Positions 4,272 through 18,468 of a stretch of DNA of 20,126 nucleotides are shown here, piece after piece (position 1 is the stretch's first letter; every line of letters starts with the position of its first letter). Source of the DNA: a virus. Below the pieces are notes generated by a model. That model was not told the origin of the DNA. It saw only the letters and a list, made by a program, of their open reading frames with translations, and did not search any database. The translations under genes and the position numbers were made by a program. The stretch is taken from positions 1 through 20,126 of the IMG/VR virus record IMGVR_UViG_3300030085_000209, one strand, 5' to 3'.

Positions 4272-5504
4272 TTATGCGGCCCATTGAAGCCATTGTTTAC
4301 CACGTTTTTTAACAGGTGCTTCTTCACAAATGATAGGTACTTGAAAAGTTACACCATGTTGTGGGTGTGTAAACCATAAAGCCTGTTTTGGTGTTTCAAA
4401 AGCAAAACGATTACTCATAGCGTACTCGTCATAACCTTTGAGAGAGCCATTTACAATAGCTCCTTTGATAGATATATACTGATGGAAGTGCCCCATGATA
4501 ACATAGTCAATGGACTTACCAAGGTTGGTATATTCTGATCTAACCTTCTGAACTCCTCTCGCAATAGGCCCAAGCATTCCAACAATACCAGTACCTCCTC
4601 GCACACCAAGCCTATCGCCGTGTGTTAGTAGATATGTAGTGTCGTATACTTTATAATACGTATCGAATCCAGTTGGTATCTGAAATTTAATTCTGTTATC
4701 ATTAACAGATTTAAAATGTTTCTCTAATAAATTATACAGCATCCAATCAAAACTAAGATGTGCAGCTTCTTTATTTCTGTACTGCTGATAAGCACGAGAG
4801 TGATTACCGTAACACGTAGGTACAAATACCTTACCAAACTTATCAGCTAGTGTAGTAATTGTCCAGATCAGTTGATCAAATAATTCTAATACATGATCTA
4901 TAGTTGTGCCATCATTTGATTCTGTTAACTCATCGTGTATGTTACCAGACATCATATCACCACCCAAGGCCAGTACTATTCCTGGATACTTAGGATTCAC
5001 CATGTGATTGTGACATAAGTCTATGGCATTTTCTACTGTAGTTTTTAATCTAGTTTGTGAAATCTTTTTATTAAAACTATTTAGATTATTTACCGCATCT
5101 TTCTTAACTACTTCTCCGTAGTGAAAATCAGATAAGAATAATGTAGGCACACCTGGTGTATTTTTAGATGGAGTAGATTTAATTGTCCACTTGGGTGGCT
5201 TGGGGTCATACTCACCTAATTTAAATACATGCTTTCGTATGTAACTAGCTGTAACATTTTGTAATGTTGCTTCTTCTAATTGACTTTTAAGATCTCTTAT
5301 CTGTATGTCATGTGTCATCTTCTGTTCTGCTAAAGCAACTTCCAAGTCAGGAGACTTAACAGTTGGTGTTATGTTATGTCTCTTGGCTTTGGCTACTCTA
5401 TCACAAAGAGTGGGTCTTGGAATACCCAAACTTCTAGCCGCTTCGGACTTATTTCCTTTGGCTAATACTAAAGCATTAACTGCTTTTTGTAATTTTGTGT
5501 CCAT
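4272..5504 (-). CDS. HTH-calcineurin-like metallophosphoesterase fusion
   Basis: 410 residues. The N-terminal ~45 residues form a Fis-type helix-turn-helix (GNKSEAARSLGIPRPTLCDR), followed by a charged coiled region to about residue 90. Residues ~118-345 carry all five calcineurin-like signatures: LSDFHYG (Asp126, His128), LGGDM (Asp183), CYGNHSR (Asn234, His235), LLTHGDR (His295) and MGHFHQY (His339, His341). This predicts a two-metal phosphoesterase, related in fold to SbcD/Mre11, lambda phosphatase and other phage MPEs. The HTH may target it to DNA, suggesting a nuclease or phosphatase acting on DNA. An AGGAG site seven bases before the ATG supports the start. It is the last gene of the unit led by the oxygenase. 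Confidence 0.88.
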   Translation of the reverse strand: MDTKLQKAVNALVLAKGNKSEAARSLGIPRPTLCDRVAKAKRHNITPTVKSPDLEVALAEQKMTHDIQIRDLKSQLEEATLQNVTASYIRKHVFKLGEYDPKPPKWTIKSTPSKNTPGVPTLFLSDFHYGEVVKKDAVNNLNSFNKKISQTRLKTTVENAIDLCHNHMVNPKYPGIVLALGGDMMSGNIHDELTESNDGTTIDHVLELFDQLIWTITTLADKFGKVFVPTCYGNHSRAYQQYRNKEAAHLSFDWMLYNLLEKHFKSVNDNRIKFQIPTGFDTYYKVYDTTYLLTHGDRLGVRGGTGIVGMLGPIARGVQKVRSEYTNLGKSIDYVIMGHFHQYISIKGAIVNGSLKGYDEYAMSNRFAFETPKQALWFTHPQHGVTFQVPIICEEAPVKKRGKQWLQWAA

Positions 5505-9459: not shown

Positions 9460-10719
9460 TTACTTTTTTGGAAAAATTAAATTTCCCTCCAACTTTATAT
9501 AGCCAGAATCTTGCATAGCCTTGATCGTCTGATCTAACTCACCAGGATTCTGTATCTTTCTCAGCAGTTCTCGCTTAAAGAAACGCAACTGCATATGGTT
9601 CTTGTTACCAGATAGAAGTGTGGCATCTAGCCACACCTTCATATCATGAGCAATCCTACCTGTCTTTGCCATACCAAAACCTTCTAAAGCTTTGGGCATG
9701 TTTTGTTCCATGTCAAACATAATCTCTTTTGTAGTTTCCCAATCATCTTTTGTAATCTTAAGACTAGAAGATCGTGAAGCTGACACAGACATAGCAACTT
9801 TTAAAAAGTGTGACACGCGTCTTTGACAATACTCTGACAGATGTGGATCAGTTGGTTCTGGTTGTATGCCATCAAAGATATCTGTATTAGCCAACTCAAA
9901 TGCATCTCTTTCAAATTCCATAGGGCCATGCATCTTAGCTATGTTACTTAAATCATTTCGTAACTCATTGATGGTGTGTTCACTAATAACTTTTTGTCTA
10001 AGATCTTGCGGTATCTTTTCTCCTTCATAATACACAGGTATGATTCTAGATAATAAACCTTGTGACTTCGCATCTTCTGGTAAGTTATCTACAAACTGTG
10101 TAGGCGTAGCACAAGCTATCCAATTTAAACAAGGACCTTGTATTATATATTCACCAGCAGTTTTTGTTTTGTGACTGTAAGAATCTTTGGCATCCCACAT
10201 GTCTGTTAAAAACATTTGTAAGTATCTTTCATTACGACCCATGAATGTACCAAACTCTGATGTAACAAGAGTCAAGGATGAATCATAAAATTCAAAACCA
10301 TTTTCTTCATTACCCAAACGCATATCCATACGAGTAATCTTTGTCATATCAACTGCAAGTTTCTCTGGTGTTATCCTATCTTGTATACTATACAAAGGAT
10401 ACTTACGTAGACCGTAATCATCTAATCCAGAATTAAAATTGTGATCATCTTCTGTTGCACCAACAGGTGAAGTAAGTCTGCTAAATACTTTTGAGAATGG
10501 TAGTATTAAACTTACAGATTTATTTCTGCCTGGCGATGCAATCAGTATGACAAAAAGATTAGAACCTATGTTGTAGTTAGGCATAGGAAACCAAACACTT
10601 CTACCTAATGCACCAGAGACAGCAGACAAAGCTGTCCACTTTGCAAACGGCTTTGGTATCGGACTATCTTTTACAGCGTCAACACATGCCTTAACAAAAT
10701 CTTTGTTTTTTCGTGGCAT
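9460..10719 (-). CDS. DUF3987-like replication ATPase / helicase candidate
   Basis: 419 residues. It resembles the DUF3987/YfjI-type P-loop proteins that act as phage primase-helicase C-terminal parts. Residues 1-50 are helical (KPFAKWTALSAVSGALGR), then strand and loop NLFVILIASPGRNKS at 55-68, a variant Walker A lacking the usual GxGKS glycines. TLVTSEFG at ~150-157 is the acidic strand expected for Walker B or its surrogate, followed by a Trp-Asp segment, ACATP and an Arg pair (SRIIP) that may be a sensor or finger. The C-terminal third is helical with a winged-helix-like end. It sits between the polymerase and RNR genes, fitting a replicative helicase. The TAATG junction couples it to the small gene upstream. 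Helicase activity is inferred. Confidence 0.7.
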   Translation of the reverse strand: MPRKNKDFVKACVDAVKDSPIPKPFAKWTALSAVSGALGRSVWFPMPNYNIGSNLFVILIASPGRNKSVSLILPFSKVFSRLTSPVGATEDDHNFNSGLDDYGLRKYPLYSIQDRITPEKLAVDMTKITRMDMRLGNEENGFEFYDSSLTLVTSEFGTFMGRNERYLQMFLTDMWDAKDSYSHKTKTAGEYIIQGPCLNWIACATPTQFVDNLPEDAKSQGLLSRIIPVYYEGEKIPQDLRQKVISEHTINELRNDLSNIAKMHGPMEFERDAFELANTDIFDGIQPEPTDPHLSEYCQRRVSHFLKVAMSVSASRSSSLKITKDDWETTKEIMFDMEQNMPKALEGFGMAKTGRIAHDMKVWLDATLLSGNKNHMQLRFFKRELLRKIQNPGELDQTIKAMQDSGYIKLEGNLIFPKK

Positions 10720-10940
10720 TAATTAGCATTAGTCTTGCGTATATTTTCTGGATTTATCCTCACGATTTTTTCCACGTTTGATTCTGTCTCTACCCAAATG
10801 TTTCCGTCTTCATCAGACTTCATTTCACTTGGCCCTTTTATATCTAAGCCATGGCATTTGGTAACAACTTCTTTATCATTTATATTTTCTTTAACAACTA
10901 TCATGCCCTCTTCGACATATATCTTTTTTACTTTGTCCAT
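10719..10940 (-). CDS. Small beta-rich protein between polymerase and helicase genes
   Basis: 73 residues from ATG 10940; it overlaps the polymerase stop by thirteen bases and its own stop forms a TAATG junction with the helicase gene. Alternating hydrophobic and charged residues (KKIYVEEGMIVVKENI) and the DEDGNIWVETE stretch suggest a small beta sheet. Position suggests an accessory replication protein, but no family is recognised. The ribosome-binding site is weak (GGATATGAAAAC), consistent with coupling. Confidence 0.72.
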   Translation of the reverse strand: MDKVKKIYVEEGMIVVKENINDKEVVTKCHGLDIKGPSEMKSDEDGNIWVETESNVEKIVRINPENIRKTNAN

Positions 10941-12457
10941 GTTTTCATATCCTTCCAGTTATCTCCTACCTCTACGGAAGAAGGTATTATCATTTCACGT
11001 CCATTGACCATCAATGGGTTGTGCATTTTCTCAAGCACCATTGGCATGAGTTCATCTAACTTATCTTTATGACACTGGCCTAGTATTGCGTCATGCACTT
11101 GGCCTAACACCTCCACACCAGAGTCCTTCAGTTCATCGTATACTCTCCACAGTCCCAGATTAAGTAAGTCACCTATCGTAGACTGCGGGACAAAAGCTAT
11201 CGCCGCACGTAAAGTAGAAGCATCCTTGAGTCTATCCCAAAAGTGTCTGCGTCTACCCATAGGTGTGACAAGACTACCTTTCTCAAGCAATTCTTTTTGT
11301 ATAGCTGAATGCCACACTCGTATGCCTGGGAATGCCCCCTTTATCTTTAGTGTATCTTTTCCTATCTTCTCTCCTTGATCTATTAGTTCTTTGTATCCAC
11401 CTTGTGGATCTTGTTTATGCCATCTTTCTAAAGATGTGGATGATACCACACCACCAAAATAAAGCAACTGAAATCGTGTAGCCTGCGACACTTTGATCTT
11501 TATTTGTCTAGCCAAAGAGTGAGACGATACTCCATAGTTTGTTCCATGTCCTGCTCGTTTGCATATGTCACGGTAACTATGATGTAAATAATATTTTTTA
11601 TCAGCCAACGCTCTGTCTTGAGCAGGATCGTCTGACCAACCTAGATTGGGCCATACCATTTTCACAACCTCGGTATGCAAATCTGTACTCTCACAAACAT
11701 CTATGTAGTTTTGATCCGCAGCCAAGTATGCAACGGCACGAGACTCAGCTTGTTCCAAGTCAGCGTAAAACATTTTGTTACCCTCATCAGGTATAAATAC
11801 TTCTCGTAAATCTTTTGTTATGTTCTGTAAGTTTGTACCAGTGCGCCATGGTGATTCTCTTGAAGACCATCTGCCTGTCTCTGTACCTGCTACATTGTAG
11901 GAACATCTTATTCTCCCATCTGTGTCACGCTTGGAGCTAAGGACAGAAAGGTTTTTATCTATGTCACGCAACGCCAGGATAGTTCTACCAAAAGGTCTTG
12001 CTCTTGGATAAGATTCTGATAATGATTCTAAAGCATCACGATCTGTAGATATCTTTTGTTTACCTTTCTTGTACGAAACGACAGGTGGTAAGTTAAGATC
12101 TTCGTATAATAATTTTTTAAGTTGCACAGGACTGTTGTGATTTAAGTCTTTGCCATTTACAGATCTTGAAAACAAATGTAACATTCTTTCTAGTTGTAAT
12201 CTTTTTTCTTGTAAAGGTTTTCTAATTGCTTTTACTTTATCTTCGTCAACACGTAAGCCACGCAAGGTCATAGCCATGGCTGGCTTTAAACTTTTGATTT
12301 CAAAATCATATGTACCTCTTGTCGTATCATCAAAGTCCTTAGATATTTTCTCCCATATCTCTTGAGTCAAAGCACAATCAAGTGCACAATATATCCAGTT
12401 GATCTGATCATCATTATAAGGTGATAGATCTAGATTATTATTACTTACTTTTATCAT
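10928..12457 (-). CDS. Family A DNA polymerase, polymerase domain with ExoIII motif
   Basis: 509 residues. It holds the polymerase domain: GRWSS and NLQNI near 195-212, motif A YADLEQAESR (Asp233), motif B R296-x3-K300-x7-Y308-G309, and motif C QVHDAIL (His455, Asp456). Two departures are visible: Ala457 replaces the Glu of the usual HDE, and counting along motif B places His304 at the position of E. coli Phe762. The N-terminus contains WIYCALDCALT, the YxxxD ExoIII motif (Tyr23, Asp27) of the 3'-5' exonuclease, whereas ExoI and ExoII are in the separate gene at 12993-14069. An AGGAG site precedes the ATG by about ten bases. It replicates the phage genome, presumably with the exonuclease partner. 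Confidence 0.93.
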   Translation of the reverse strand: MIKVSNNNLDLSPYNDDQINWIYCALDCALTQEIWEKISKDFDDTTRGTYDFEIKSLKPAMAMTLRGLRVDEDKVKAIRKPLQEKRLQLERMLHLFSRSVNGKDLNHNSPVQLKKLLYEDLNLPPVVSYKKGKQKISTDRDALESLSESYPRARPFGRTILALRDIDKNLSVLSSKRDTDGRIRCSYNVAGTETGRWSSRESPWRTGTNLQNITKDLREVFIPDEGNKMFYADLEQAESRAVAYLAADQNYIDVCESTDLHTEVVKMVWPNLGWSDDPAQDRALADKKYYLHHSYRDICKRAGHGTNYGVSSHSLARQIKIKVSQATRFQLLYFGGVVSSTSLERWHKQDPQGGYKELIDQGEKIGKDTLKIKGAFPGIRVWHSAIQKELLEKGSLVTPMGRRRHFWDRLKDASTLRAAIAFVPQSTIGDLLNLGLWRVYDELKDSGVEVLGQVHDAILGQCHKDKLDELMPMVLEKMHNPLMVNGREMIIPSSVEVGDNWKDMKTWTK

Positions 12458-12719
12458 CTAATAATTCTCCTGCTATAGCCGAGTATCCTACCATATCTAC
12501 ATAAGTATCTTTGGTTGGGTTCGGTGATTTAGTTCTTGCTACTTTTAATAATAACATAAGCATGGCAACATCATGTGCGGTGATATCTGTATCTAGATAT
12601 GCAGACCACAGGTTTGCAATGTTTGTGTGATTAGTTTGTTTGTCTCCGTATTCTTTTTCCCTTGGCCCTTTCAATATCCTTAGTGCTTCTTTCAAGTTTT
12701 CTTCTATACTTACTACCAT
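12441..12719 (-). CDS. DUF6378-type phage protein
   Basis: 92 residues. It carries the pattern REKEYGDKQTNHTNIANLW, then AHDVAMLMLLLKVAR and DTYVDMVGYSAIAGE, which I recognise as the helical phage family DUF6378 of unknown role. A GGAG site seven bases before the ATG supports the start, although this puts 89 bases of overlap with the preceding gene. It is lodged between the two halves of the DNA polymerase, so may have been part of the insertion that separated them. Its stop overlaps the polymerase start by 17 bases. Confidence 0.82.
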   Translation of the reverse strand: MVVSIEENLKEALRILKGPREKEYGDKQTNHTNIANLWSAYLDTDITAHDVAMLMLLLKVARTKSPNPTKDTYVDMVGYSAIAGELLDDKSK

Positions 12720-12993
12720 AAAATTTCTCCATCAATTTATAAATTTCTTTACGAGTTGTTCTCCCATCTAAATCTGCTAAGTCACAGATAAAATTAAAAT
12801 CACTGTCCTCGTTGTCATCATTCACCCACTCCCATGCAGATAAATGAGCCTTCTTATCTTCTTTTCCTTTACCTTCGTAAACTAAATCTTGTAGTGTCTG
12901 ATCTAATACAGCACGCCATAAACGTATTGTATTTATATGTTCTTCCCACTTCTCGTCTACATCTTTGGCAGAGAAATAATTTGGTCGCTTCAC
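12631..12993 (-). CDS. Phage protein of unknown function, between polymerase halves
   Basis: 120 residues from a GTG at 12993 that shares one base with the preceding stop (TAGTG). The segment LWRAVLDQTLQDLVYEG, then AHLSAWEWVNDDNEDSDFNFICDLADLDGRTTRKEIYKL resembles a small helical protein seen in many phages (pattern W-x-A-V-L-x-Q-x(3)-D ... W-V ... D-F-x(2)-I/V-C-x-L-A). The C-terminal ~30 residues are very basic (KYRRKLERSTKDIERAKGKRIRRQ), and this tail is the part that overlaps the next gene by 89 bases. No function is known to me; the basic tail suggests nucleic-acid contact. Confidence 0.8.
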   Translation of the reverse strand: MKRPNYFSAKDVDEKWEEHINTIRLWRAVLDQTLQDLVYEGKGKEDKKAHLSAWEWVNDDNEDSDFNFICDLADLDGRTTRKEIYKLMEKFYGSKYRRKLERSTKDIERAKGKRIRRQTN

Positions 12994-14069
12994 TATTCAT
13001 CGGCTTTCGTGCTTTGAGAAAACTTGGCTAGAGTTTTCCATGCACCCTCGTTAGTGTATATGGAGCCTAAGAAGCCTAAACCTTTTTCCATTTCTGGTTG
13101 CAAAGAATGTTGTGCGTGCATAGTGTCATGCACTATACCTTTAACTTCTATATCCTGTTTATATTTTAACCATGACACATCATAAGATTGATTCTGTGCT
13201 ACCTTTGCAATTTGTTTGTCCTCTAATAAATCTTTAACCCAATTCCACGCTTTTGTTTCATCATCTTTCTTCCAGTATCCGTATGTGAATGGTACTACAA
13301 TGGCATGGGTAGATGAGGGGGCAAACCCTATACATGTTATTCGCCCACCTGCTGTTTCAATATCAAATGCCAAAGGATGATCTGCGTTATTTCTTCTTAT
13401 GAAGTCTTCTTTAAATTTATCTAGGTCGTTTATACTCGGCTCGATCCAGAGTTCTCTTTCGATGTTTTTTATTTCTTTTGTTTCAGATTCTTGTTTTGCT
13501 TTTTTGAAATCAGAATATAATATAGATCTCAATGCATAATTTTTTGACACACTAGACAGGGCGTAAGAAGGAACTATTTTTATATCATCATTGATGTGTG
13601 AGGTGTTAGAGGAGATGAGCGCCCCTCTATAAGTTCCAATCTTATCATACCCTGTTAGTGCCCACAATGATACTGCCCCCAGTGCTATTACAACATTAGG
13701 TTTAGCGTCATTGATTTCCTTGTACAATCTTTCTAGATGTGGTTGCGTCTCCTGTTTAAGAAACCCCATCGTCGAAGACGGATAGGGTGATCGCCACTCA
13801 GTAGTCTTGCACAAAGCCTTGTATTCACTTCTCTTGTGAAAAAAGTTTTGTAAGTTTTCTTGTGCTGGTCGTCTTTGAAAGACGTGGGTGAGCATGCATT
13901 CTTCCAGCTGTATCCCTGCTAGTTTACACACCTTGCCTAGAATGTAATCTCCTGCAAGTATTTTATTTAAACGAACTTCGTTAACTGTTGGATAGTCCAT
14001 GACGATTGCAATCTTTGCACCGTCAATTAATTTAGAAGTTACATTCTTGTGTACTGCATACTCACCCAT
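12993..14069 (-). CDS. UDG-like domain fused to 3'-5' exonuclease part of family A polymerase
   Basis: 358 residues. Residues ~15-195 look like a uracil-DNA-glycosylase superfamily domain (AKIAIVMDYPT, AKPNVVIALGAVSLWAL, TYRGAL, VPSYAL, then SDFKKAK), comparable to the N-terminal domain of SPO1-like polymerases. The UDG4 HPS motif appears as VPS, and the iron-sulfur cysteines are absent, so glycosylase activity is doubtful. Residues ~230-340 are a DEDD exonuclease: ExoI AFDIET (Asp236, Glu238) and ExoII QNQSYDVSW (Asp297), then HDTMHAQHSL. The protein ends after WKTLAKFSQSTKADE, before the ExoIII YxxxD motif. That motif is in the polymerase protein. The exonuclease should therefore be assembled from two polypeptides to proofread. 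Confidence 0.85.
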   Translation of the reverse strand: MGEYAVHKNVTSKLIDGAKIAIVMDYPTVNEVRLNKILAGDYILGKVCKLAGIQLEECMLTHVFQRRPAQENLQNFFHKRSEYKALCKTTEWRSPYPSSTMGFLKQETQPHLERLYKEINDAKPNVVIALGAVSLWALTGYDKIGTYRGALISSNTSHINDDIKIVPSYALSSVSKNYALRSILYSDFKKAKQESETKEIKNIERELWIEPSINDLDKFKEDFIRRNNADHPLAFDIETAGGRITCIGFAPSSTHAIVVPFTYGYWKKDDETKAWNWVKDLLEDKQIAKVAQNQSYDVSWLKYKQDIEVKGIVHDTMHAQHSLQPEMEKGLGFLGSIYTNEGAWKTLAKFSQSTKADE

Positions 14070-14073
14070 ATTA

Positions 14074-14514
14074 CTACGCCGCCTTATTAATTATTCTTTT
14101 AATAGACGCTTGTAGTATGTCTTTGTTTCGGCCCACCATTTCGTGCTTCACAACACCAGAAAATGTTTGACCTATGCTTTGCTCTAGCATTTCGCCAAAG
14201 TTAGCACCACCCATACCGAGTGTTTTGGTTAGGAATTTCTTAATAGAAATCACAGGGTTGCCCTGTCCTAACGCTCTAGCCGTAGCCCAGAACTCCATTC
14301 TGGTTGGCTCGCAGTGATCCAAGTCTGCGTCGGTGATCTCAGATTCTAAGACAGCGTTTGCCTTAACATTGATCCTTACGATCTCATTCTGATTCTCACC
14401 TACCTTATCTGTACGATAAGATGTGATAACGAAGTCGTAGCTACCTTCTGGTAAAGGCATCTGCTCCTGTACGTCATCTGGATTCATTGATAAAAAGTCT
14501 GATATTTCAGCCAT
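14074..14514 (-). CDS. Putative ssDNA-binding / recombination partner (DUF669-like)
   Basis: 146 residues from ATG 14514, with a GGAGG site seven bases upstream overlapping the end of the Sak4-like gene (TAATG junction). After a short acidic start, PEGSYDFVITSYRTDKVGENQNEIVRINVKANAV has the strand pattern of an OB-fold, followed by a basic C-terminal region. Small OB-type proteins commonly sit beside Sak4 and other recombinases as ssDNA-binding partners; DUF669 is one such family. I make the family assignment with moderate confidence, mostly from context and strand pattern. Its likely role is coating single-stranded DNA during replication or recombination. Confidence 0.6.
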   Translation of the reverse strand: MAEISDFLSMNPDDVQEQMPLPEGSYDFVITSYRTDKVGENQNEIVRINVKANAVLESEITDADLDHCEPTRMEFWATARALGQGNPVISIKKFLTKTLGMGGANFGEMLEQSIGQTFSGVVKHEMVGRNKDILQASIKRIINKAA

Positions 14515-15329
14515 TATTTACCTCCTTTATTTAAGTTAATTACATTGTCGGCTGACAATTTCTTACGAGCATTTTGCTGTATTGCACTGAACAACTTAGC
14601 TAAATCTAATTCAGTTGTCTGACCAATAAGACTTGGTGCAGTAACTTTTAGATCCATCCTGTGATCAGACACAGTACGCAAAGTCCTCTCGGTTCCTTTG
14701 CTAGAAGAACGTGTATCGATTCTGCATACACAGTTGAAGTATCTACCTAGCTTTGTAGATAGTTTAGAACCTACACTAGTTGGGTACGCTTTGGACACGC
14801 CCATGTCTCCTTCCATGTATTGCATATGCGTTGTAACAACCACGTTACAAGGCACTTCCGATCCTGTTATGTACTGTATGATATGTTGCACATCACGAGC
14901 CGCCGTTCCCCATTCTGGTTGCGACGCTTGATCAGTTGACTTCTTGTTATTGAAAACAAGAGCAGCACGAAGTGCAGCCTCGCCCATCAATGTTAAGCTG
15001 TCAATAACTAACACATCTTTATTAGTCCATTTAGAAACAGGACCGTATTCTTCATCTTCATCTTTCCAATTAGAAATTAAAGTTGCACCCTTACGAAACG
15101 CCTCCGCTCTACCCATAGGATCTTTCAATGTAACATAAGAAACATTGTTGACACCTGTTTCAGTTAAGAACTCGGGTAAAATGTCTAAGCCGTTGTCAAA
15201 ATCTAAGATACGTAACTTGTATCCTGCGTTCGCAAGAGTGGCTAATGAAGCCGTCTTACCAGAGCCACTATCTCCTACGAGTAGTAACTTGGTTACATCT
15301 ACTGATGTATGATTTTTTATACTTGCCAT
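14514..15329 (-). CDS. Sak4-like RecA-fold ATPase (ssDNA annealing/recombination)
   Basis: 271 residues. Walker A GDSGSGKT is at residues 19-26, and Walker B DVLVIDSLT is near 105-113. A DFDNGLDIL motif follows the first helix, and the strand VVVTTHMQYM lies where RecA-fold proteins have motif III. Lengths and order match Sak4 proteins, phage RecA-core ATPases used for single-strand annealing. The C-terminal ~30 residues are basic and extend past the core. It has its own promoter at 15351-15378 and AGGAG before the ATG. It is followed at once by the OB-like gene and preceded by an AddB/Cas4-like nuclease, together a recombination module. RecA-core ATPase is sure; the Sak4 subgroup is a strong inference. 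Confidence 0.88.
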   Translation of the reverse strand: MASIKNHTSVDVTKLLLVGDSGSGKTASLATLANAGYKLRILDFDNGLDILPEFLTETGVNNVSYVTLKDPMGRAEAFRKGATLISNWKDEDEEYGPVSKWTNKDVLVIDSLTLMGEAALRAALVFNNKKSTDQASQPEWGTAARDVQHIIQYITGSEVPCNVVVTTHMQYMEGDMGVSKAYPTSVGSKLSTKLGRYFNCVCRIDTRSSSKGTERTLRTVSDHRMDLKVTAPSLIGQTTELDLAKLFSAIQQNARKKLSADNVINLNKGGK

Positions 15330-15350
15330 ATTTATCTCCTGTATTTTGTA

Positions 15351-15378
15351 ATATTAGCATAATTAAAATTTTTGTCAA
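15351..15378 (-). promoter_or_regulatory. Promoter for the Sak4/replication unit, built on a stop codon
   Basis: A perfect TTGACA (15373-15378) includes the TGA stop codon of the upstream nuclease gene (15375-15377). After 16 bases ending TGC comes TAATAT (15351-15356), so it has the extended -10. The leader to the ATG at 15329 would be about 15 bases and contains AGGAG. Confidence 0.72.
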
Positions 15379-16334
15379 GAAGTTTTTTTACCAAATAAAT
15401 TTTCTGCGTGTATGACTTCTGCTTCTCTAACCAGGTCATCGTGTAACGCAACTTCAAAGTCTTCCTTCAACAATGTGGCACGGTGGTCAGGTGATTCGGC
15501 ACACACTTCCCTGAACTTACAACCACCATAGTTTCCACATGATGTAAAGTTAGCAGGGTAATACTGACTATCCCAATAGGCTTCAGATATTCCCAAGCTG
15601 TGTACTGTATCAGCATACCATTCATCAATAGATAAATTAGATACATTAAATACAGCACGATTAAATCTACAAAAGTGCACACCAGTTTGAACTGCATCAA
15701 TAATAAATCCACGCACAGGTAAATTTAATATGTGTCTCGCCGCCCACAAGTATGCATACACTTGATTGTTTGGTTGATAGTTTCTAAAATACATATCACT
15801 TAAAGAAGCCTTTGTTGTTTTTGTATCGCACAGATACAAGCCACCTTCAAACTCTACGATCTTATCTATCCTACCAGAAAATCTTTTACCTGTGTCGCCA
15901 AAGGGTACTTCAAATCTTTTCTCAAGACACGGTTCACCATTAGGCATAGACGCTATCTTTATATTATCATCCCAGTATTCATCCACTCTCCATACTATTG
16001 CACGAAGTGCGGCTTCTAATCCTCTGGCTTTATCTTCTGACAAAGATAGATCTGCTCCGTAATTCTTAAGTGTAAACTCAATAGCCTCACGCAGTGTCTC
16101 TTGTTTGTTTTTATTATGAAATCTACCTCTATCTAATATCTCATACGCGTCGTGTACCGCAGAGCCAAAGCCCGTAACCGTACCATAACTTTTTAATTTA
16201 TACCCACGTAAGTTTGTTAGATTGTATAGACGGGGGCACGCCAAGAAAGTTGATAGACTTGACGTATCCCACACCACTTGTTTAGGTTTGTCATCCACAT
16301 AAACATACTTCGGAATCCTATCTGGTTTAGACAT
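15375..16334 (-). CDS. Cas4/AddB-like PD-(D/E)XK nuclease with Fe-S cysteines
   Basis: 319 residues. It shows the RecB-type nuclease order: GFGSAVHDAYE (His61), SGRIDKIVE (Asp157), CDTKTTK (Asp170, Lys172) and the NQVYAYLW (Q-x3-Y, Gln191, Tyr195) motif. One Cys near the N-terminus (Cys33 in ACPRLY) and three at the C-terminus (Cys266, Cys272, Cys278 in CGNYGGCKFREVC) match the 4Fe-4S arrangement of Cas4 and AddB. It should be a DNA exonuclease that produces single-stranded ends for the neighbouring Sak4 ATPase. The start ATG lies inside the previous gene's end (eight-base overlap). No CRISPR or other cas gene is nearby, so a CRISPR role is not supported. Confidence 0.9.
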   Translation of the reverse strand: MSKPDRIPKYVYVDDKPKQVVWDTSSLSTFLACPRLYNLTNLRGYKLKSYGTVTGFGSAVHDAYEILDRGRFHNKNKQETLREAIEFTLKNYGADLSLSEDKARGLEAALRAIVWRVDEYWDDNIKIASMPNGEPCLEKRFEVPFGDTGKRFSGRIDKIVEFEGGLYLCDTKTTKASLSDMYFRNYQPNNQVYAYLWAARHILNLPVRGFIIDAVQTGVHFCRFNRAVFNVSNLSIDEWYADTVHSLGISEAYWDSQYYPANFTSCGNYGGCKFREVCAESPDHRATLLKEDFEVALHDDLVREAEVIHAENLFGKKTS

Positions 16335-17903: not shown

Positions 17904-18055
17904 ATTCTAACTCCTATTAATATATAAGATATAATCATCAAAGCAACGAACGGATTTCGAAACTTTTCTTCAGTAATAAAACCTACAATAGCGATTAAAG
18001 GGAACGCTGTCAAGCCCCCAATAAACATAAGGTAGGACATAAATTCTATAATCAT
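17876..18055 (-). CDS. Small two-TM membrane protein
   Basis: 59 residues from ATG 18055, chosen because it overlaps the upstream stop as ATGA and has GGAG eight bases upstream; a GTG at 18064 is possible but has no better site. Two hydrophobic segments, about residues 5-28 (MSYLMFIGGLTAFPLIAIVG) and 36-51 (NPFVALMIISYILIGV), are separated by a charged loop TEEKFR, and the tail is basic (HTRKK). This predicts a hairpin in the inner membrane. Function unknown; superinfection exclusion or membrane disturbance are possibilities. Confidence 0.75.
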   Translation of the reverse strand: MIIEFMSYLMFIGGLTAFPLIAIVGFITEEKFRNPFVALMIISYILIGVRIWQNHTRKK

Positions 18056-18468
18056 AGTGACCACTCCTTTATGTTGTCTACTGCTTCAATGTCTTTAACT
18101 GGCATAAGTCTATGGTTGTTGCCAGGAAACATAAAGACTAACACAGATCCAACTTCATATTCTTTTGTTACTTCATTCATCACATCTATTTGAAAAGGGT
18201 AGTATGATGATCCACTCTCGATAGCATTTACTCTATCCATAGTTTCTGGTGTGACTGACCACACCTCACCCCGTATTCTAAATCCTTTCTCTCTTGCCAC
18301 AAGAATAGGAAAACTTTTTGCGTAACTAAACAAATCATACTTGTCATCCGCTGTCACATATGTGCCAACAAATTCAGATGAATTGCCTAACACACTGTGT
18401 AGTCTGCCATTCTTTTTTAATGTGCCATAGACGAATAGATTAGTCCTCCAATCATAATCATTCGACAT
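18052..18468 (-). CDS. Gamma-glutamylcyclotransferase-fold (AIG2/GGCT-like) protein
   Basis: 138 residues. The signature LFVYGTLKKNGRLHSVLG at residues 11-28 is the substrate-binding loop of the GGCT/AIG2 fold, and GEVWSVTPETMDRVNAIESG contains Glu84 at the expected catalytic acid. Family members cyclise gamma-glutamyl amines or peptides to 5-oxoproline, so this could act on glutathione-like or gamma-glutamyl metabolites, or on a modified macromolecule. In phages their targets are mostly unknown. An AAAGGA site precedes the ATG by seven bases, and the stop overlaps the next start. It belongs to the early cassette. Confidence 0.88.
   Translation of the reverse strand: MSNDYDWRTNLFVYGTLKKNGRLHSVLGNSSEFVGTYVTADDKYDLFSYAKSFPILVAREKGFRIRGEVWSVTPETMDRVNAIESGSSYYPFQIDVMNEVTKEYEVGSVLVFMFPGNNHRLMPVKDIEAVDNIKEWSL

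Follow-up and report, generated by a model that had tools for sequence, protein, structure and literature searches.

A phage family A DNA polymerase encoded by two genes, with the break inside the proofreading exonuclease domain

The window analysed here, a 20,126-nucleotide stretch of viral DNA (IMG/VR record IMGVR_UViG_3300030085_000209, positions 1 to 20,126), encodes a family A DNA polymerase as two open reading frames (ORFs) on the minus strand, termed here the N-half and the C-half. An earlier interpretation made from the letters of the window (the sequence-only reading) had located both ORFs and the ExoI, ExoII and ExoIII residues, and had proposed that the upstream protein stops before ExoIII; all of this was borne out. 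In the N-half, the match to the Pfam exonuclease family DNA_pol_A_exo1 (PF01612, E 3.7e-12) is confined to positions 10-130 of the 173-position profile. ExoIII lies on the polymerase chain, the C-half, which matches DNA_pol_A (PF00476, E 5e-45). The PF01612 motifs are thus not on one polypeptide, ExoIII being carried by the other chain. In two relatives, the C-half ORF holds the missing end of the profile (150-173), at a score below the family cut-off, and the N-halves hold about 4-130. The PHROG family phrog_17 (DNA polymerase) is common to both halves, which cover it consecutively and without overlap (N-half 478-795, C-half 808-1236). The elements of the locus are listed below; conservation was counted over 130 distinct complete N-half/C-half pairs.

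12993..14069, minus strand: N-half of the split polymerase (358 aa), an ORF with a UDG-like domain and the ExoI/ExoII part of the 3'-5' exonuclease
13533..13973, minus strand: domain resembling the uracil-DNA glycosylase (UDG) superfamily, N-half residues 33-179 (PF03167, E 2e-4, under the gathering cut-off)
13356..13364, minus strand: ExoI, D236-I-E238 of the N-half; D and E invariant in 130/130 pairs
13179..13196, minus strand: ExoII, QNQSYD with D297 of the N-half; D297 and N293 invariant in 130/130 pairs
12993..13040, minus strand: C-terminal tail of the N-half, WKTLAKFSQSTKADE plus stop, at the conserved break point; W344 and K345 invariant, K355 at 90%, D357 at 89%
12631..12993, minus strand: spacer gene 1 (120 aa, no known family); its GTG start overlaps the N-half stop
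12441..12719, minus strand: spacer gene 2 (92 aa, DUF6378; PF19905, E 1.4e-28)
12467..12471, minus strand: Shine-Dalgarno-like AGGAG, 9 nt upstream of the C-half ATG (from the sequence)
10928..12457, minus strand: C-half of the split polymerase (509 aa), an ORF with the ExoIII segment and a complete family A polymerase
12377..12391, minus strand: ExoIII, Y23-x3-D27 of the C-half (polymerase chain); Y and D invariant in 130/130 pairs
11759..11761, minus strand: polymerase motif A, D233 of the C-half; invariant in 130/130 pairs
11090..11095, minus strand: polymerase motif C, H455-D456 of the C-half; invariant in 130/130 pairs

The N-half, the two spacer genes and the C-half form four reading frames overlapping end to start, with the end of the DUF6378 gene overlapping the C-half ATG. 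The UDG superfamily match of the N-half scored 21.7 bits against a cut-off of 24.3, and the homologous N-half of a related locus (L288) gave a weak match to the solved UDG TM0511.

In order to assess the distribution of the break, split loci were collected from phage records, IMG/VR and bacterial assemblies. Drawn from many samples, at least 154 distinct loci show the identical break, far more than chance would produce. They comprise the window clade (presumably marine, judged by its sample and accompanying contigs), a pair of Kuura-like loci, a second large clade and two lone contigs from metagenome-assembled genomes (MAGs). The break position is constant, with the N-half ending in ...WKxxRK..TIKRDE(stop) and the C-half starting with M(R/K/A)II.T....Y..LD, and wherever a locus is complete across this region, an ExoIII-bearing C-half comes after the N-half. 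The cultured Caulobacter phage Kuura, whose genome is complete, has the same break between Kuura_029 and Kuura_026, with 34-36% identity of its halves to the window proteins and with two unrelated small spacer genes that differ from those of the window. Its N-half is labelled hypothetical protein only, and the polymerase passages of the Kuura description (PMC9959647) make no mention of a split polymerase. Searches confined to open-access literature turned up no earlier account of this break. The matches in bacterial assemblies that carry the break were MAG contigs assigned to Terriglobia, Phycisphaerae, Acidobacteria and Actinomycetes, which may represent co-binned phage. One 52-kb contig binned with an Acidobacteria genome (L324) has the split polymerase and is a possible host lead.

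These loci settle the question of a sequencing or assembly artefact, or of a decaying pseudogene. The window, as a 20 kb metagenomic virus fragment, would be open to such an explanation, but with the same break in at least 154 distinct loci and in the cultured complete phage, and with a dN/dS (ratio of nonsynonymous to synonymous divergence) of about 0.1, its probability is practically nil; an assembly artefact was ruled out, and the sequence-only reading was right that the break is no sequencing frameshift. Its supporting argument, that two unrelated genes lie between the halves, describes the window correctly and does not extend to the clade as a whole: the spacer is variable, and 11 loci of the second clade have none, the halves meeting there in 4-nt stop/start overlaps, in 1-nt overlaps or, in L288, at a TAG with an in-frame ATG directly after it.

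The DnaQ-like exonuclease motif set (ExoI D-x-E, ExoII D, ExoIII Y-x3-D) is complete in 130/130 pairs, but across two ORFs. The family A polymerase motifs A, B and C (D; R/K/Y; H-D) are present as well, with residues kept in at least 129 of the 130. Within the first 49 residues of the C-half, Y23, D27 and T31 are the only columns at 100%, and the neighbours of ExoIII vary; this is as expected if these residues serve an exonuclease site made together with the N-half chain. Both halves are under purifying selection (dN/dS 0.03-0.13). Only one family A polymerase was found in each of 22 virus records (32-61 kb) and in the Kuura genome; one MAG included in this check carries other polymerases as well. 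It is conceivable that the two chains act apart, the C-half as a polymerase without proofreading and the N-half as an inactive or structural remnant or in UDG-type repair. Phage PolA variants with lost exonuclease residues do exist (divPolA1; PMC11348598) and the UDG-like domain might serve an independent role, but the invariance of all five exonuclease residues on both chains, together with the constant succession of N-half and ExoIII-bearing C-half, makes this quite improbable.

Two features of the polymerase chain were observed in passing. The equivalent of E. coli Pol I position 762, in the motif B sequence K-RAG-H, seems to be a histidine, C-half H304 (window 11546-11548), which is invariant in the alignment examined (A9) and occurs in one-piece relatives too; a virioplankton survey sorts phage PolA into Phe, Tyr or Leu groups (PMC6302109). 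Between Y333 and A375, the window clade also carries some 40 inserted residues (C-half about 334-372, GGVVSSTSLERWHKQDPQGG...), which are missing from the Kuura and second-clade polymerases.

The origin of the break was addressed with a maximum-likelihood tree of the polymerase part comprising 65 rows; it came from a quick search, and its distant one-piece rows sit on long branches. All 29 representatives of the exonuclease-internal split lie on one side of one branch with a Shimodaira-Hasegawa-like approximate likelihood ratio test (SH-aLRT) support of 100, and the split label needs one change. Because the one-piece relatives fall outside this clade, a single fission appears to be the simplest history of the break, and no return from the split to the one-piece form was seen on this tree. 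As judged from these sequences, the exonuclease-internal fission is the founder of a large clade. The comparison with one-piece homologues suggested by the sequence-only reading was possible with phrog_17 relatives (59 full-length; also Microcystis phage Mel-JY34, ctMlz233 and vir526), which have the same three domains (UDG-like, exonuclease, PolA) in the same order and with the same catalytic motifs as the split pair, but on a single polypeptide. In Mel-JY34, 16 residues separate the WK motif from ExoIII, whereas the window has a 13-residue tail, a stop, a new start and a 22-residue head. The same polymerase family contains other breaks, namely between the UDG-like domain and the exonuclease in L391 and L412, between exonuclease and polymerase in L334 (= MW202554), and inside the polymerase after the NLQN motif in L378, L384, L406-L408, L411 and Vibrio phage VS-ABTNL-3. 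Since breaks occur at these three other places, fission is recurrent in the phrog_17-type family.

The DNA between the halves is of changing content. In the window clade it consists of the 120-aa family (a cluster of 115 spacer ORFs) plus DUF6378 or DUF3310; DUF3310 takes the place of spacer gene 2, or the gene is absent, in relatives. Outside the window clade, the spacers are unrelated single genes (among them HNH, endonuclease VII, weak LAGLIDADG-like, RNase H, DUF7768, DUF1937). Between the window and its relative L013, synonymous divergence (dS) amounts to 0.07 for the N-half, 0.26 for the C-half and 0.94 for the DUF6378 gene. Because the latter value is far above those of the flanking halves, the spacer is apparently swapped as a cassette by recombination. 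We infer that the junction tolerates incoming genes as a landing site, with homing endonucleases possibly among the arrivals, and that the spacer genes are dispensable, exchangeable and no part of the split mechanism. The first event may have been either an insertion, lost afterwards, or a plain stop/start. As separate observations, the spacer family of 95-120 aa is conserved at the junction in more than 100 loci, its window copy (12631-12993) matching neither Pfam nor PHROG, and the second-clade phages L266, L270, L273, L285, L289 and L292 have HNH, endonuclease VII or LAGLIDADG-like genes at this place.

The spacer also bears on the possibility that the halves are joined into one chain after all, by a self-splicing intron, by trans-splicing of a split intein or by ribosomal bypass or readthrough. 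Phage polymerase genes with introns are on record, as is a split-intein PolB, that of MIJ3 (PMC6892783), the authors describing MEP401 tentatively attributed their split polymerase to an intron (PMC10580990), and L288 has its ATG in frame directly after the TAG. Splicing, inteins and bypass are nevertheless disfavoured because an Rfam search of the window and 13 relatives returned no intron, because the spacer-free loci exist and because the flanks are too short for intein halves, with a 13-aa tail of the N-half after its last conserved motif and a 22-aa head of the C-half before ExoIII. Furthermore, the spacer consists of overlapping ORFs, of which the DUF6378 gene is under purifying selection, and the C-half begins at a start codon of its own, preceded in most marine loci by a Shine-Dalgarno sequence. 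A Shine-Dalgarno-like motif precedes the C-half start in 96 of 118 loci with a gap of 400-700 nt, against a background of 11%; the signal is weaker in the remaining loci (11/34), in many of which the C-half overlaps or abuts the N-half. A joined chain is therefore regarded as highly improbable, and both an intron-interrupted gene (no Rfam group I/II intron) and a split-intein polymerase of the MIJ3 PolB type (13 and 22 residues beside the break) were rejected as descriptions of the window.

The natural in-frame pair of L288 was used for structure prediction, since its lone TAG, if decoded as a residue, links the N- and C-halves and leaves all other letters unchanged. The AlphaFold2 model of this read-through chain, obtained with a 60-row alignment, has one Klenow-like fold with a mean predicted local distance difference test (pLDDT) score of 91.9 and a predicted template modelling (pTM) score of 0.88. 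The last seven residues aside, only the segments 360-364 and 366-368 fall below a pLDDT of 50; the predicted disorder thus coincides with the break, the stop being residue 368. On the C-half side, an ordered strand (371-374) is followed by a continuous helix (386-411) with ExoIII. Compared with Klenow structures, the model aligned over about 660 columns with a TM score of 0.77 (normalised to Klenow). The window C-half folded alone gave pLDDT values of 57, 70 and 62 over its first three tens of residues, with no strand and a broken ExoIII helix. Although the two runs differ in proteins and alignments, their comparison suggests that the ExoIII segment becomes ordered only when the N-half is present.

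Taken together, we consider it very probable that the two genes encode a two-subunit, Klenow-type family A polymerase with a proofreading site shared between the chains, and this enzyme is most likely the replicative polymerase of the phage. This reading starts from the observed split, its single origin on the tree, the conservation, the selection on both halves and the lack of a second family A copy in the records checked; with the predicted joint fold added, these observations support the proposal of the sequence-only reading that the exonuclease site would be built from two proteins. In the proposed scenario, a single break, in the ancestor from which a large phage clade descends, would have hit a flexible loop immediately ahead of the ExoIII helix, so that one cistron would now yield two chains translated in succession. 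Subunit A would comprise the UDG-like domain together with an exonuclease core that bears ExoI and ExoII (D236, E238, D297), and subunit B the ExoIII helix (Y23, D27) and the thumb/palm/fingers polymerase. The two would assemble non-covalently into a Klenow-like enzyme, in which B would contribute the ExoIII Tyr and Asp that the two-metal proofreading site of A lacks. The roles given to these residues are those of the established ExoI-III chemistry of Pol I.

Several points weigh against this reading. Physical assembly, shared metal binding and proofreading are what we infer from sequences, models and analogy. The joint model represents the covalent read-through chain of a relative rather than two free chains or the window proteins. 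The alignment used for folding (A8) misplaces the N-half rows beyond the UDG-like domain, and for this reason the exonuclease part of the L288 model rests mainly on 28 one-piece rows. Finally, the distances of N-half and C-half correlate over the 130 pairs (r = 0.956), which counts in favour of the reading, but such in-step divergence is also due to shared ancestry.

Fractured phage enzymes are already known as a kind (gp43A/B, NrdA-a/b, MEP401 PolA). The MEP401/402 PolA of OM43 phages is broken inside the polymerase domain (PMC10580990), as are several of the loci described above, in contrast to the statement of the sequence-only reading that known split phage polymerases are divided between domains. 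MEP401/402 and Vibrio phage VS-ABTNL-3 resemble the window in that two ORFs, separated by a small gene, encode the family A polymerase, but their break lies inside the polymerase domain, in VS-ABTNL-3 just after the NLQN motif, and leaves the whole exonuclease on the first chain. The window was accordingly not classed as a MEP401-type split, its break preceding ExoIII rather than lying inside the polymerase domain. The gp43A/gp43B proteins of Aeromonas phages 25 and 44RR are likewise a replicative polymerase in two pieces, and for phage 25 the two pieces purify together and have polymerase activity (PMC2988022); they differ from the window in being family B and of unrelated sequence, and what separates the pieces is either the gene of a seg homing endonuclease or an insert that is not translated. 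NrdA-a/NrdA-b of Aeromonas phage Aeh1 is an essential enzyme in two chains with full activity as two polypeptides (PMC2988022), but it is a ribonucleotide reductase split by mobE. By analogy with gp43A/B and NrdA, the split window enzyme may reassemble, and the joint model is compatible with this.

Judged against the open-access literature, what is new here is the break through the proofreading active site, the breadth of its conservation and the existence of spacer-free forms. The pair would represent a natural two-chain proofreading site, as predicted from sequences and model, retained across a large phage clade. With it one can test what allows an essential catalytic centre to stay functional when divided over two chains, and whether fidelity changes once proofreading is separated from synthesis. 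The spacer-free forms are short natural gene pairs ready for expression. Annotation overlooks the N-half, as in Kuura, and surveys of proofreading that use the polymerase ORF alone would wrongly call these phages exonuclease-deficient. It is doubtful, though worth considering, that the split is a device rather than a scar, with the UDG-like/exonuclease chain as a dissociable proofreading subunit; if true, this would give a PolA with or without proofreading, depending for example on chain ratio or timing, and thus an adjustable fidelity.

The split polymerase is flanked by further genes, listed below.

9460..10719, minus strand: DUF3987/primase-like gene, downstream (PF13148, phrog_14296)
14074..16334, minus strand: SSB-like, Sak4-like and PD-(D/E)XK nuclease genes, upstream; a replication/recombination module (Pfam/PHROG matches)

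A primase-like gene is also found 3' of the one-piece polymerase in L005, L333 and L335, and one-piece relatives with such a gene directly downstream include Mel-JY34 and vir526. In vir526, nuclease and Sak4-like genes likewise lie ahead of the one-piece polymerase. Elsewhere in the window, positions 4272-5504 encode a 410-aa protein with an N-terminal Fis-type helix-turn-helix and a phosphoesterase-looking body (GNH and GHFH motifs) that matched no Pfam phosphoesterase model, and positions 18052-18468 encode a phage gamma-glutamyl cyclotransferase-like (AIG2) protein (PF06094).

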